DNA from: Jannaschia aquimarina | GTDB taxonomy: Bacteria > Pseudomonadota > Alphaproteobacteria > Rhodobacterales > Rhodobacteraceae | Reading direction: 5' to 3' | NCBI RefSeq assembly: GCF_000877395.1 | Contig: NZ_JYFE01000027.1 | Coordinates: forward strand, 1-64,000 | DNA: 64,000 nucleotides | Shown: piece by piece, positions 26 to 47,825 of the stretch | How positions within the stretch are numbered: the stretch's first letter is position 1 | Layout: each line of letters starts with the position of its first letter | Program-made: the position numbers and the translations under genes | Notes under the pieces: generated by a model | Databases searched by the model: none | The model's input: the letters and a program-made list of their open reading frames with translations, nothing else | What the model was told of the DNA's origin: nothing

Positions 26-88
26 GGATCGCTCCGGTGGAGCGATCCGCCTGCGAGCGGGCGGAGCCCTGGGCACCGGACCGGTGCC
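26..88. other. Two inverted repeats at the left edge
   Basis: Bases 26-34 and 40-48 form a perfect 9-bp stem (GGATCGCTC / GAGCGATCC) around a 5-base loop. Bases 72-88 are a perfect 17-bp palindrome, GGCACCGG-A-CCGGTGCC, whose single central base is too short for a normal hairpin loop, so it looks more like a protein site. The right end of the palindrome overlaps the first register of the GTGCAC array. The gene upstream lies outside the window, so no role can be assigned. Confidence 0.4.
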
Positions 89-133
89 GCTTGTGCAGAC
101 GGGGGGTGCACAGGGGGTGCACAGGGGGTGCAC
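84..133 (+). repeat. GTGCAC 11-bp phased array, copy A
   Basis: Exact GTGCAC palindromes start at 106, 117 and 128, 11 bp apart. A degenerate GTGCCG sits in phase at 84 and GCAGAC at 95, giving five registers over exactly 50 bp. Copy B (19358-19407) and copy C (46844-46893), both read on the minus strand, have the same length, phase and GGGGG spacers; copy B has the same GCAGAC in register 2. Copy A lies 25 bp beyond the 3' end of the converging DMT transporter gene. Eleven bp is about one helical turn, which would place the palindromes on one DNA face. Confidence 0.8.
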
Positions 134-158: not shown

Positions 159-1022
159 TCAGCGCAGTCGTGAAACCTGCACGGCGAGGATTCCCCCGGC
201 CACGATCGCGACGCCGACCACGTCCACCGGACCCAGCTTCTCGCCCAGCAGGGCCCAGGCGATCACCACGCCGAAGAACGGGTTCAGGAAGTGGAAGGTC
301 GCCGCGGGCGTCGCTCCGATCCGCGCCACAAGCAGGAACCAGACCCAGGTCGCCAACAGCCCTGGAACCAACGTAGTATAGGCGAAAGCCGCTGTCAGCC
401 GCAGGCTCCAGGTCACGTCCCAGACCTCCGTCGCCAGCCCGACTGGCAAGAGGGCGAGTGCGCCGACCAGCATCTGCAACCCCACCACCGTCAACAGGTT
501 GCCCCCGCCCGAGGCGCCCCGAACGGACAGGGTGGCAACCGTCAAAGCGACCACCCCGATCAGGCACAACGCGATCCCCCAGACCGGCGCCCCCCCGGAC
601 ACCCGCGTCCCCATGATCAGGACCACCCCAAGCGTTCCGGCGAAAAGGCCAATGACGCCAATGGGTTTCGTGGGTTCCGAGAAGAGGATCCAGTTCGCCA
701 ATGCGACGCAGAGCGGCAGCGCCGACGCGATGATCGCCGCCAGCGATGCCTCCACCTCCTGCATCGCGACGAAGTTCAGCCCCAGATACAAGGCGTTCTG
801 GCAAATCCCGAACGCAATCACCGCCCGCCATTGCGCCTTGTCGAGTCGCAGCCGCTCTCCGGTCGCCAAGGCCAGCATCAGCCCCAGCACGCCCGATATC
901 GCGAAACGCAGCGACAGCGACAGGATGGGCGGGGCCTCGGCGACGATGATGCGCGCCGACGTAAAGGCCGACGACCACATCAGGGCGAAGAGAAGCCCCA
1001 GCACGAGGGCGCGGAGATCCAT
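159..1022 (-). CDS. DMT-superfamily (EamA) transporter
   Basis: A 287-residue inner-membrane protein with about ten hydrophobic segments, arranged as two tandem EamA halves. It opens with LLFALMWSSAFTSARIIV, typical of drug/metabolite transporters of the RhaT/YdcZ/EamA type, which usually export small metabolites or amino acids. A conserved helix near the C-terminus (PAATFHFLNPFFGVVIAWALLGE) matches the second EamA repeat. The length is normal for the family. Nothing in the sequence fixes the substrate. It is a single gene, on the same strand as the HU gene but separated from it by a terminator, and has no strong ribosome binding site. Confidence 0.85.
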   Translation of the reverse strand: MDLRALVLGLLFALMWSSAFTSARIIVAEAPPILSLSLRFAISGVLGLMLALATGERLRLDKAQWRAVIAFGICQNALYLGLNFVAMQEVEASLAAIIASALPLCVALANWILFSEPTKPIGVIGLFAGTLGVVLIMGTRVSGGAPVWGIALCLIGVVALTVATLSVRGASGGGNLLTVVGLQMLVGALALLPVGLATEVWDVTWSLRLTAAFAYTTLVPGLLATWVWFLLVARIGATPAATFHFLNPFFGVVIAWALLGEKLGPVDVVGVAIVAGGILAVQVSRLR

Positions 1023-17695: not shown

Positions 17696-18472
17696 ATGAG
17701 CGTCGCGATCGTCATTCCAGCGCGCTACGCCTCGACCCGCTATCCCGGAAAACCGCTCGTCGAATTGACCCTGCCCGATGGCAGCAGGAAATCCCTGATC
17801 CGAATGACCTGGGACGCCGCGCAGCAGGTCGGGGGCGTCGATCATATTCACGTCGCCACCGACGATGACCGCATCCGCGACCACTGCGAAGCCTTCGGAG
17901 CGTCCGTGGTCATGACCTCCGAGGCGGCGCGCAACGGCACCGAGCGGTGCGCCGAGGCGGCCGAGGCCGTTGGCGCGGACCTCATTGTGAACCTTCAGGG
18001 CGACGCGCCGTTGACGCCACCCTGGTTCGTCGAGGCGCTGATAGACGGGATCGGACAAGCCGACGTCGCGACGCCCGTCCTGCGCTGCGATCGCAAGACC
18101 TACGACATGTTCGTCGAGGACCGCCGGGCCGGGCGGGTCGGAGGAACGACAGCCGTCTTCGACCGGGCGATGCGGGGCCTCTACTTTTCCAAGGAGGTCA
18201 TTCCCTGGATCGACCCCACCAAGGTCCCGGACCCGGTCCCCGTCTTCCACCATGTCGGCGCCTATGCCTACACGCCAGCCGCGCTGAGATCCTATGCCAG
18301 CTGGCCCGAGGGGGAGCTGGAGCGGCGGGAAGGCCTTGAACAGCTTCGCTTTCTCGAGAACGGCGCCCATGTCGCCTGCGTCGAGGTCGAAGCGCGGGGC
18401 CGCACGTTCTGGGAACTCAACAACCCTGCCGATGTCGCCCGCATCGAGACCGCCCTGAAGGAGAATGGCTGA
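17696..18472 (+). CDS. kdsB: 3-deoxy-manno-octulosonate cytidylyltransferase
   Basis: A 258-residue enzyme that activates KDO with CTP to CMP-KDO for LPS or capsule synthesis. It opens with [19 protein letters not shown], the nucleotide-binding signature of KdsB/Kps[14 protein letters not shown] and [18 protein letters not shown] are conserved. The metal motif reads LQGDAPLT, where most KdsB proteins have [21 protein letters not shown] is also typical. The stop overlaps the kdsA start by one base (TGATG). It may be the capsule-type (KpsU) paralogue, given the neighbouring polysaccharide genes. Confidence 0.92.
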
Positions 18473-19308
18473 TGGATCCGATCCAGTCCCGCGTGGTCGA
18501 TGTCTCCGGTATTCCCTGCGGCGGGTCCGAGCCGTTCATGCTCATCACCGGGCCGTGCCAGCTCGAAAGCCTGGACCACGCGCGGATGATGGCGGAGCGC
18601 ATCGCCGCCGCCTGCGCGCCGACCGGCACACGGTTCGTCTTCAAGGCGAGCTACGACAAGGCGAACCGCTCCTCGCTTTCGGGCACCCGTGGGTTGGGAA
18701 TGGAGAAGGGGCTGGAAATCCTTGGGAAAATCAAGGCGGAGTTCGGCTGTCCCGTTCTCACCGACGTGCATGAGACCGGCCATTGCGCGCCCGCGGCGGA
18801 GGTGTGCGACATCCTTCAGATCCCCGCCTTTCTGTCGCGGCAGACCGATCTCCTGCTTGCGGCGGGCGAGACCGGTGCCGTGATCAACATCAAGAAGGGG
18901 CAGTTCCTCGCCCCGTGGGACATGCCAAATGTCGCGGCCAAGGTGGCCAGCACCGGCAACGAGAAAATCCTGCTCTGTGAACGAGGAACCTCGTTTGGTT
19001 ACAATACCTTGGTGACGGATTTCCGTGGGCTGCCGCAGATGGAGGCGACAGGATATCCAGTGGTGTTCGACGCAACGCATTCGGTGCAGCAGCCGGGGGG
19101 GTTGGGTGGCTCGTCAGGGGGACAGAGGGAGTTTGCGCCGGTGCTCGCCCGGGCAGCCTGTTCGGTGGGGGTCTCGGCGCTCTTCATCGAGACGCATCAG
19201 GATCCGGACAATGCCCCGTCGGATGGGCCCAACATGATCCCCATCGAGCGGATGGAAGCCCTGATCGGTGATCTGAGACGCTTCGACGATCTGCGCAAAG
19301 GTCGCTGA
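18472..19308 (+). CDS. kdsA: 3-deoxy-8-phosphooctulonate synthase (KDO-8-P synthase)
   Basis: A 278-residue TIM-barrel enzyme that condenses phosphoenolpyruvate with arabinose 5-phosphate to KDO-8-phosphate, the committed step toward KDO. It shows [68 protein letters not shown] and [16 protein letters not shown], all family signatures. The length is normal. It follows kdsB directly; with waaA at 27-28 kb the window holds synthesis, activation and transfer of KDO. Confidence 0.97.
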
Positions 19309-19357: not shown

Positions 19358-19407
19358 ATGCACCCCCTGTGCACCATCTGTGCACCCCCCGTCTGCACAA
19401 TGTGCAC
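19358..19407 (-). repeat. GTGCAC 11-bp phased array, copy B
   Basis: Read on the minus strand, the five registers are GTGCAC (19402), GCAGAC (19391), GTGCAC (19380), GTGCAC (19369) and GTGCAT (19358), each 11 bp apart, over exactly 50 bp. Register 2 equals that of copy A and register 5 equals that of copy C. It starts 50 bp after the kdsA stop, oriented antisense to it. Confidence 0.8.
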
Positions 19408-19693: not shown

Positions 19694-20293
19694 ATGTTCG
19701 AATGGGTCCTATCCGTCATGGCGCGGGCCGGGTACGGGGGGCTCGCCTTCCTGATGCTGGCCGAGAACGTCTTCCCTCCGATCCCGTCCGAGGTCGTCAT
19801 GCCGCTGGCCGGCTTCCTGTCGGCACGCGGAGATTTCTGGTTGCCTTGGGCGATCCTTGCCGGGCTGGTCGGGACGGTGCTGGGCGCGCTCTTCTGGTAT
19901 TGGGTCGGGATGGCGATCGGCACCGCCCGGCTGAGGCGCGTGACGGAGCGTCATGGCCGATGGCTGACCCTCTCTCCGACGGATGTCGAAAAGGCCGAGA
20001 TCTACTTCCGGGAACGCGGCCTGATGGCCGTCTTCGCGGGGCGGATGCTGCCGGGGCTGCGCACGCTGATCTCGGTGCCTGCGGGTATGGCGCGGATGCC
20101 GATGGGCCCGTTTCTGCTGGCGACGACGGCCGGGAGCCTGATCTGGATCGGGGGGCTGGCGATCCTGGGCTACATCCTCGAGTCGCAATACGATCGGATC
20201 CACGCCTGGCTCGACCCTGCGATCTGGGTGGTCGTGGGCGCTGTGGCGGGTGTCTATTTCTGGCGGCTCTTCAGGCAGGAGTCGCGGCGTTGA
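19694..20293 (+). CDS. DedA-family membrane protein
   Basis: A 199-residue polytopic inner-membrane protein. The DedA/SNARE-associated signature ENVFPPIPSEVVMPLAG occurs at 24-40 and the second conserved segment FAGRMLPGLRTLISVPAGMARM around 112-135. DedA proteins are polyprenyl-phosphate or phospholipid flippase-like transporters needed for envelope integrity. The key acidic residues (Glu24, Glu33) and the Arg in GRMLPGLR are kept. The length is slightly short but within range. A stand-alone gene between two unrelated loci. Confidence 0.92.
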   Translation: MFEWVLSVMARAGYGGLAFLMLAENVFPPIPSEVVMPLAGFLSARGDFWLPWAILAGLVGTVLGALFWYWVGMAIGTARLRRVTERHGRWLTLSPTDVEKAEIYFRERGLMAVFAGRMLPGLRTLISVPAGMARMPMGPFLLATTAGSLIWIGGLAILGYILESQYDRIHAWLDPAIWVVVGAVAGVYFWRLFRQESRR

Positions 20294-46026: not shown

Positions 46027-46815
46027 TCAGAGATCGAACGTCGCGAAGACGGGGGCGTGATCGCTGGGCTTTTCCCAGCCGCGGACGTGGCGGAGAACGC
46101 GGGACGAGTGGGCGGCGCTCGCGATGTCGGGCGTGGCCCAGACGTGGTCGAGGCGGCGGCCCTTGTCGGCCTTGTCCCAGTCGGGCGAGCGGTAGGACCA
46201 CCAGGAATAGAGCTGGCCTTCGGGGATGTCGGCGCGGGTGACGTCGACCCAGGCGCCGGCATCCTGCGTCTGGCCCAGCGTCTCGACCTCGACCGGCGTG
46301 TGGCTGACGACCTTCAGAAGCTGCTTGTGGGACCAGACGTCGTCCTCGCGCGGGGCGATGTTGAGATCGCCCACCAGAATGGATTTCGCGGGCCGGTCGG
46401 CATGGAAGGCGTCGCGCATCGAGGTCAGGTAATCCAGCTTTTGTCCAAACTTGTCATTGACTTCCCGGTCCGGCACGTCGCCCCCGGCGGGGACGTAGAA
46501 GTTGTGGATCGTCACCCCGTTTTCGAGCCGGCCTGCGATGTGGCGGGCATGGCCCAGATCCGCGTGATCGTCGGCGCCGGCTTCCTCCAGAGGCAGCTTC
46601 GAGAAGATAGCGACGCCGTTATACCCCTTTTGCCCGCGGGCGACGCGCCAGCGGTAGCCGAGGGCCTCGAACGCTTCGGTGGGGATCTTGTCCACGGGGG
46701 ACTTGCACTCCTGGAGGCAGAGGATGTCGGGCGCTTCCTCCTCCATCAGCCGGGCGACCAGACCCTCCCGCAGGCGAACCGAGTTGATGTTCCATGTTGC
46801 GAGAGTGAAGGGCAT
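46027..46815 (-). CDS. xth: Exodeoxyribonuclease III
   Basis: A 262-residue AP endonuclease/3'-5' exonuclease that cuts at abasic sites and blocked 3' ends. Active-site parts are ATWNINSVRLR, the metal Glu36 in LQECKSP, GDLNIAPREDDVW and the C-terminal KPSDHAPVFATFDL. The start at 46815 (MPFTLATWN) matches the family and has GGAG seven bases upstream. The frame stays open further upstream only because it reads through the GTGCAC array. The array lies 28-78 bases before the ATG, where promoter or leader control would act. Confidence 0.96.
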   Translation of the reverse strand: MPFTLATWNINSVRLREGLVARLMEEEAPDILCLQECKSPVDKIPTEAFEALGYRWRVARGQKGYNGVAIFSKLPLEEAGADDHADLGHARHIAGRLENGVTIHNFYVPAGGDVPDREVNDKFGQKLDYLTSMRDAFHADRPAKSILVGDLNIAPREDDVWSHKQLLKVVSHTPVEVETLGQTQDAGAWVDVTRADIPEGQLYSWWSYRSPDWDKADKGRRLDHVWATPDIASAAHSSRVLRHVRGWEKPSDHAPVFATFDL

Positions 46816-46843: not shown

Positions 46844-46893
46844 ATGCACTCCCTGTGCACCCCCTGTGCACCCCCCGTGCAGACGATGTGCAC
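46844..46893 (-). repeat. GTGCAC 11-bp phased array, copy C (xth leader)
   Basis: Read on the minus strand, five hexamers start every 11 bp: GTGCAC (46888), CTGCAC (46877), GTGCAC (46866), GTGCAC (46855) and GTGCAT (46844), in total exactly 50 bp. It is the best-kept copy. The following bases CCGCATTTTTGCAC resemble GGCATTCTCGCAC after copy B, so similarity extends past the array. It sits between the DUF2461 gene end and the xth start, in the sense orientation for xth. Confidence 0.85.
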
Positions 46894-46906: not shown

Positions 46907-47560
46907 TCAGGAGTCCCGTATCAGCACCTCCCGGACGGGAAGCAAGGCCTCGAACCGATCCGTGAGGGCCGCGACGAGGCCGTCTCCGGTCTCGCGCCAA
47001 CCCTCGGGCAGGGGGCCGCCCAGGGCGAAGGATTTGCGGCGCAGCAGGTCGCCGTGCGGGTGCTCGGGCGCATAGGGTTTGGGCACCCGCTTGAGCGGGT
47101 CGGGGCCGATCTCGGACAGGGACCCGCCAGAGGCTCCCATCGCCTCGGTCAGATCGTCGCCATGGCGGTCGATCAGAGCCCTGAACCGCGCGAGCCCGTC
47201 TTTGTCGAAGCCGGGCCAGCCGAGGCCCGCGAAGGTCGCCGCCGGCTCGATCCCGAAATAGAAGGAGGGGCCGGGATCGACCGGGGCCCAGAGCATCGCC
47301 AGCATCGTCTTGTAGGGGGACTTGTCCTTGGAGAAGCGAATGTCGCGGTTGATGCGGAACACCTTCGGGCGGTGCGGCGTGCGGGTCAGTCGGGCCAGAT
47401 CCTCGGCCACGAGATCGGCGAACAGCTTGGCCGGGGCTTCGATATCGCGTTTCCAAGCCGCCTTGCGCGGTTCGAACCAATCCCTGGAGTTGTTTTGCGC
47501 GAGGGCAGCGTAGAAGCGCTGGGCCCGGTCGAGCATCTTGGTAAACCCATCGTCGGACAT
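46907..47560 (-). CDS. DUF2461 (TIGR02453-type) protein
   Basis: A 217-residue protein of the DUF2461 family. Characteristic segments are FYAALAQNNSRDWFEPRKAAW, FRINRDIRFSKDKSPYKTMLAMLW, SFYFGIEPAATFAGLGWPGFD and KRVPKPYAPEHPHGDLLRRKSF. The basic KSPYKT region and conserved Trp/Arg residues suggest a ligand site, but no activity is established. The start at 47560 follows GGAGGG and is preferred to an upstream in-frame codon. Confidence 0.88.
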   Translation of the reverse strand: MSDDGFTKMLDRAQRFYAALAQNNSRDWFEPRKAAWKRDIEAPAKLFADLVAEDLARLTRTPHRPKVFRINRDIRFSKDKSPYKTMLAMLWAPVDPGPSFYFGIEPAATFAGLGWPGFDKDGLARFRALIDRHGDDLTEAMGASGGSLSEIGPDPLKRVPKPYAPEHPHGDLLRRKSFALGGPLPEGWRETGDGLVAALTDRFEALLPVREVLIRDS

Positions 47561-47667: not shown

Positions 47668-47694
47668 AAAAAAGGCCGGACGCGAGGTCCGGCC
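47668..47694 (-). terminator. Rho-independent terminator of the response regulator gene
   Basis: On the minus strand the 8-bp stem GGCCGGAC / GTCCGGCC with a 5-base loop is followed by TTTTTT. It lies about 130 bp past the stop of the response regulator gene and before the DUF2461 gene. Confidence 0.85.
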
Positions 47695-47825
47695 GAGTCC
47701 AACAGGGAGGTGCGGTCGATTGCCCGCGACCGCAGCGGGTATCTTTACTCTAACCCGAAAAATGTGGCTGCCGTTAGGTAAACGAAGGTCGGAGACGTGA
47801 AGATTTCCGGCCTGTTGCACCCGCA

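Follow-up and report, generated by a model that had tools for sequence, protein, structure and literature searches.

Dispersed chromosomal sites recognized by one reader protein are represented by KOPS/FtsK, matS/MatP, and parS/ParB, and KOPS is additionally skewed with replication. MraZ binds as an oligomer to several direct repeats approximately one turn apart at the mra promoter. A review describes binding of the BrnA-BrnT complex to its own promoter (PMC5086665), and another article states that R1 ParR requires at least two 11-bp repeats and that ParR families are specific to their own parC (PMC9426499). Titles and abstract openings in the open PMC literature yielded nothing on the arrays described here or on dispersed sites of a BrnA-like protein. 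These arrays were found in a 64,000-nucleotide stretch (the window) of contig C27 of a Jannaschia genome (G000; 81 contigs, 4.10 Mb), and a stand-alone ribbon-helix-helix (RHH) protein encoded outside the window is the candidate for binding them.

Direct reading bore out the original prediction of three arrays with five registers 11 bp apart, and gene predictions confirmed that all three are intergenic (Table 1). Array A is oriented as the reverse complement of arrays B and C, and exact GTGCAC occupies three of the five registers in each. Read on A's strand, register 2 is GCAGAC in A and B and register 5 is GTGCAT in B and C, as had been claimed. The pattern GTGCACN5GTGCAC with up to two mismatches matched the window 11 times against 3.34 expected, a count reached by 1 of 100 shuffles. 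An array is also present at the G008 site orthologous to array C; the exo/endonuclease-family gene of the window is, judging by eye, presumably xth. Additionally, Rfam gave a single match in the window, SorX (singlet oxygen resistance sRNA, 78.2 bits), located directly upstream of the DUF2461 gene that adjoins array C and away from any array; a known RNA family was dropped as an identity for the arrays.

Table 1. Positions of the arrays, their neighbours, and related features (window numbering unless a contig is given)
Feature	Position	Strand	Details
Array A	84..133	- (C-rich strand)	five registers, 11-bp step; + strand at 84, 95, 106, 117, 128: GTGCCG, GCAGAC, GTGCAC, GTGCAC, GTGCAC
EamA transporter gene	159-1022	-	array A ~26 bp past its stop
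DAHP synthase I gene	18472-19308	+	array B ~50 bp past its stop
Array B	19358..19407	+ (C-rich strand)	five registers, 11-bp step; + strand: ATGCAC, GTGCAC, GTGCAC, GTCTGC, GTGCAC
VTT-domain gene	19694-20293	+	array B ~285-310 bp ahead of gene
Exo/endonuclease-family gene	46027-46815	-	array C 29 bp upstream of its start
Array C	46844..46893	+ (C-rich strand)	five registers, 11-bp step; + strand: ATGCAC, GTGCAC, GTGCAC, GTGCAG, GTGCAC
DUF2461 gene	46907-47560	-	array C 14 bp past its stop
SorX match	47668-47740	-	
RHH gene	G000:C6:35732-36100		outside window
G000 contig-end arrays	C12:140, C13:53533, C20:219448, C22:49346, C27:107, C33:78, C41:259768, C42:112, C55:63060, C72:95, C73:74		

The genome-wide scan proposed with the prediction gave 54 exact matches to the phased triple TGCACN5GTGCACN5GTGCA in G000 (both strands give the same 54); the reversed pattern had none. 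These matches correspond to 43 distinct arrays, and a looser two-register pattern yielded 44 sites among the loci examined. Aligned on the C-rich strand, the arrays mostly read TGCACCCCCYGTGCACCCCCYGTGCACCCCCCGTCTGCAC and have pieces of flank in common. In addition, 11 arrays lie within approximately 140 bp of contig ends, and several of these adjoin a longer common sequence (ccggttgcgcgccgccttgcgcggc...). In G000, arrays seem to have a second repeat family attached to them, which may break the assembly. The common flanks and the contig-end arrays beside longer shared sequence would suit an intergenic repeat of a selfish or mobile kind that multiplies by copying, with the RHH protein as a host factor or the repeat's helper. 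The strand polarity described below would suit it too, as single-strand transposition is known to insert with strand polarity. We consider this reading unlikely in view of the relatives and the protein described below.

Among 246 Rhodobacteraceae genomes (one per genus), GTGCACN5GTGCAC pairs were found in 29 and at least four of them in 12, against 0-2 for the reversed control. The 11-bp phasing, whose absence from related genomes would have refuted the original prediction, was kept in them; in other genera the spacers vary between and within genomes, and the hexamer and the step are constant. Different genera had arrays next to the same genes, including lpdA, a thiolase, chorismate mutase, and an exonuclease (lpdA, ttcA, prfC, xth, and other names beyond Pfam matches are presumed, having been recognized by eye). 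In several species that lack GTGCAC upstream of lpdA, 11-bp arrays of GATCACCC, GAGTTACGAAA, and others occupy this region. When 29 of 30 lpdA upstream regions were used (one locus was unparsed), a z of 2.5 was passed at lag 11 in 10 and at lag 22 in 9, and at other lags in 0-2. Within the genus, GATCACN5GATCAC had 43, 34, 22, 21, and 14 matches in five congeners and 1 in G000, with a reversed control of 0 apart from 1 match in G001. Eight of the 24 GATCAC sites of G015 share a flanking gene with a G000 GTGCAC site, 7 of them clearly, against a roughly estimated chance expectation of ~0.4; these counts take in a pair inside a predicted reading frame (L003/L183) and a thiolase pair of 45.6% identity that is possibly paralogous. 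The mean array spacing in the relatives measured was ~60-140 kb. Free variation of the spacers in other genomes while hexamer and step hold, and persistence of an array at orthologous sites although the motif changes, both argue against a mobile repeat. Shared descent, which had been predicted for the window copies, fits many copies within G000, which have common flanks, but across species resemblance tracks a protein-dependent motif that changes; common descent alone was dropped because spacers vary and the motif changes.

Many G000 arrays lie 15-50 bp past a stop codon with the C-rich strand as the sense strand, and GTGCACN5GTGCAC, read from the sequence, is able to pair as a hairpin. Both features would be expected of an RNA-level element, namely a C-rich rut-like site or a hairpin terminator near the 3' end of the transcript. 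Such an element is nevertheless highly improbable: the spacers in other genera are not C-rich, it is the GTGCAC sequence and not the pairing potential that is conserved, and arrays of GATCACCC, GTCTTCC, and the like would not form an identical hairpin. Moreover, 9 of the 25 codirectional G000 arrays are antisense, and array C lies upstream of the nearest gene start. The terminator or structural role named as the main alternative in the original prediction is unsupported because the C-rich spacer varies between genera and the phased GTGCAC is kept. At least three G5 runs occur on the G-rich strand; a G-quadruplex was dropped together with a Rho rut site and a hairpin terminator, since other genera keep the 11-bp GTGCAC with other spacers.

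The candidate protein of G000 is a stand-alone RHH protein of 138 aa with the strand TRVTLRVD. Its gene has its own GTGCAC array ~80-100 bp upstream, which makes it very probable that the protein controls its own gene. Two other genera (G131 and G241) have an array between prfC and a small gene, and in G037 one lies beside a similar gene. When that small gene served as the query, many congeners proved to have a relative of it, usually with an upstream array in the species' own motif; one search kept the best 80 of 172 relatives. The RHH set comprised 108 distinct proteins after duplicate removal, 107 of them with enough upstream DNA. The C-terminal RHH domain matched Pfam BrnA_antitoxin (PF14384) above the gathering score of 26.1 bits in five of six proteins, including that of G000 (39.0 bits, E 1e-9); the G015 protein fell below it with 21.5 bits. 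RHH matches were found in 16 of the 20 genomes of the genus, and the four congeners without one, at the limit of the search, had no GTGCAC triples, 0-1 GATCAC pairs, and no GTGTTAC. G294 encodes three RHH paralogs, with the strands TRVTLRLD, TRITLCVE, and EKVTLYLD. All three genes are preceded by an array (that of EKVTLYLD seen by eye), and genome-wide G294 has 26 GTGCAC pairs and 39 ATGCAC pairs. In many Jannaschia genes, we also noted by eye a GTTAACCGCTC...GCCCGAG-like block between the array and the RHH start, which is perhaps a promoter or a CtrA-like site.

Our codon-usage script predicted a gene within 60 bp upstream of the RHH gene in 0 of 107 cases; on the downstream side, 5 of 89 had a same-strand gene no more than 60 bp away. 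What we take by eye to be ordinary brnT-brnA pairs occur at L362 (G037) and L242 (G004), separate from the stand-alone RHH genes. At L061 (G037), a protein that by eye appears to resemble RAYT (REP-associated tyrosine transposase) directly adjoins the RHH gene, which would favour a mobile repeat. Against such a repeat, the G000 protein had no match at 1e-5 among 72,556 plasmid records, where distant relatives could escape, or in a phage collection. The predicted model of the relative L275 had a pLDDT of 88-92 over residues 51-80 (mean 68), with helices at 62-70 and 75-91 and no strand assigned in the monomer. Foldseek with the RHH monomer model returned one meaningless match and no solved RHH structure, and a PDB profile search with the RHH protein returned none. 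NCBIfam gave no meaningful match for four proteins. PADLOC had no match for two proteins, and a defence system was dropped.

Upstream of the 107 RHH genes, z exceeded 2.5 at lag 11 in 80, at lag 22 in 56, at lag 12 in 12, and at other lags in 0-4. The repeated word followed residues 55, 57, and 59 of the protein. Members with R.T.R had GT[A/G]CAC (lag-11 words GTACA in 12 and GTGCA in 10 of 33), those with R.T.small had ATGCAC (ATGCA in 12 of 14), and those with N at 57 had GTCTT (9 of 12). K.T.x was accompanied by GTCTGG or GTATGG (GTCTG in 5 and TATGG in 4 of 16), K.S.Y/W by GATCACCC (TGATC in 4 and GTGAT in 3 of 9), and H.T.R by GTGTTAC (GTGTT in 2 of 2); none of the four R.A.R members had a recognisable class motif. 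An unbiased scan of 117 alignment columns (94 genes with a lag-11 5-mer, pairs <45% identical) ranked R55, T57, T54, and R59, on the DNA-facing strand, as the best predictors of motif sharing. At lag 11, a word was common to 220 of 704 pairs with the same residues 55 and 57 and to 51 of 2449 pairs otherwise, and among pairs <35% identical outside the strand, a lag-11 5-mer was in common in 57 of 151 with the same triple versus 66 of 1001 with different triples. By residues 55 and 57, sharing was also seen with fewer pairs at lag 10 (17/220 vs 2/224) and lag 12 (18/131 vs 3/711), and it was at or near 0 at lags 9 and 13. Therefore, the 11-bp step is not absolute. The array of the L219 (G010) RHH gene, read by eye, has a step of 12 bp instead of 11 (GTCGTGAnnnnn).

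The protein also predicted the genome-wide distribution of the words; the array upstream of the RHH gene itself is counted wherever it fits the pattern. ATGCAC pairs, predicted from R.T.small, were found in 7 of 7 genomes (93, 52, 39, 31, 27, 4, and 2 matches) versus 0 of 16 others (p 4e-6). GTGTTAC pairs, predicted from HVTAR proteins, were present in 2 of 2 genomes versus 0 of 18 other congeners: G017 had 11 matches and G012 had 7, two of the latter at the RHH gene itself, and each genome had one directly upstream of lpdA. Where the strand is KVSLY/W or KISLY, 7 of 7 genomes had at least three GATCAC matches, versus 1 of 13 others, where G010 (K.S.W, QKLSFWVD) is counted with the others; regrouped, the figures are 7/8 versus 1/12. 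Family-wide, the link was moderate, with any RHH match in 9 of 12 genomes that had at least four GTGCAC pairs versus 74 of 234. This correspondence between protein and motif is a further point against a mobile repeat.

The pairing has exceptions. G190 has 10 GTGCAC pairs and no RHH match, and G109 has a weak one. The RHH matches L356 (G308) and L359 (G273) contain internal stops in genomes that still have GTGCAC arrays, and they are possible relics of a lost reader. G001 has 21 GATCAC pairs and paralogs with R.S.W and R.T.R, none with K.S.Y/W. G010 has K.S.W, yet a different motif and 1 GATCAC pair. The lag-11 threshold was missed by 27 of the 107 RHH genes.

As for function, the main rival takes the same RHH protein for a global regulator of a large regulon, with the arrays serving as its ordinary promoter operators. 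It concerns function alone and is compatible with the binding proposed here. The array usually present upstream of the RHH gene itself and the arrays beside lpdA, the thiolase, chorismate mutase, and the exonuclease in several genera agree with it. Counts in codirectional, divergent, and convergent gaps were 25/2/3 in G000, 11/4/7 in G015, and 11/6/2 in G011 (71 arrays classified; another 13 at the edge of a locus and 2 within a predicted frame were left out). The arrays are therefore not confined to promoters; 12 of the 71 lie between convergent genes, where a promoter is not expected, and the neighbours are unrelated housekeeping genes. In addition, orientation tracks GC skew far more than coding direction (40 vs 2 against 27 vs 16 in G000). 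A regulon appears less likely than not.

Array orientation was polar with respect to local GC skew, which was calculated from flanks of 10 kb for the window arrays, at most 2 kb at other G000 loci, and ~1 kb in G008, G015, and G011. The C-rich strand was on the positive-skew side in G000 (40 vs 2) and G008 (10 vs 0), and GATCACCC was on the negative-skew side in G015 (22 vs 1) and G011 (17 vs 2). The split by coding direction was 27/16 in G000, 5/5 in G008, 13/11 in G015, and 14/5 in G011, where it is also uneven. Arrays B and C obey the skew rule, and array A, one of two G000 exceptions, breaks it weakly (-0.004 on the C-rich strand). The skew is present on both flanks, and in G000 it fades past 1.5 kb on the left side. 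At larger scale, polarity was weaker in G015 with skew from 20-kb pieces (16 vs 5), and 24 of 30 testable arrays agreed in G267, the 30 being those of 55 arrays for which a sample of clear skew was no more than 60 kb away. On G267 contigs C1-C3 (L384-L403), the sign of the skew flips several times and array orientation tends to flip too, which suggests that the skew switches are inversions or assembly joins. Spacing was more regular than random jointly over six contigs (p 0.002) and on three contigs singly, and regular spacing was absent in G015, G011:C11, and G267:C3. This test left out two G015 matches and one G011:C11 match, whose spacers do not start with CC and which were judged to be chance, as well as G011:C5 and three G267:C4 arrays.

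Taken together, the arrays are likely to be cooperative binding sites of an autoregulated RHH protein that may mark the chromosome, which is the best explanation of the sequence patterns. Each array would offer an operator at every helical turn along a single face of the DNA, and dimers of the stand-alone BrnA-type RHH protein would sit on it side by side, probably one dimer per turn, with beta-strand residues 55, 57, and 59 reading the hexamer. Comparative sequence evidence strongly supports binding of the RHH protein to the arrays, and the original prediction, in which a protein binds cooperatively to sites in helical phase, gains the same support, now with a candidate protein named. The dispersed polar arrays may mark or organise the chromosome as loop or segregation landmarks and not serve a metabolic regulon; that they organise the chromosome is a tentative proposal, with the chances close to balanced. 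An unexplained class of intergenic repeats is now tied to a named protein family, and the putative amino-acid-to-base code for an RHH protein is testable with few point changes. The Jannaschia species and their relatives also offer a natural series in which the protein and dozens of chromosomal sites appear to have changed specificity together.

Compared with the BrnT/BrnA type II toxin-antitoxin system, the protein described here has a C-terminal RHH domain of the BrnA_antitoxin family, but the toxin position upstream of its gene is without a predicted gene and the arrays are scattered along the chromosome. The ParR/parC system of plasmid partition likewise combines an RHH protein with tandem direct repeats; it has a single centromere on a plasmid, however, whereas the short arrays described here number in the dozens and are chromosomal, and the G000 protein is unmatched among plasmid records at the threshold given above. 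MraZ shares the direct repeats approximately one turn apart, but it has another fold and a single promoter. KOPS, matS, and parS are similar in being dispersed chromosomal sites, with KOPS skewed with replication and the present arrays oriented with local GC skew, whereas the present sites are phased arrays with an RHH reader and a motif that differs between congeners. An antitoxin-derived RHH protein and polar arrays could form a chromosome-marking system of the Rhodobacteraceae in which protein and word co-evolve between sister species, a somewhat more speculative suggestion. If true, these would be co-evolving bacterial landmark sequences with fast turnover, partly at the same genomic places and with a three-residue code. 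If the arrays organise the chromosome, a landmark system that arose from an orphan antitoxin relative would stand beside ParB/parS, MatP/matS, and FtsK/KOPS.
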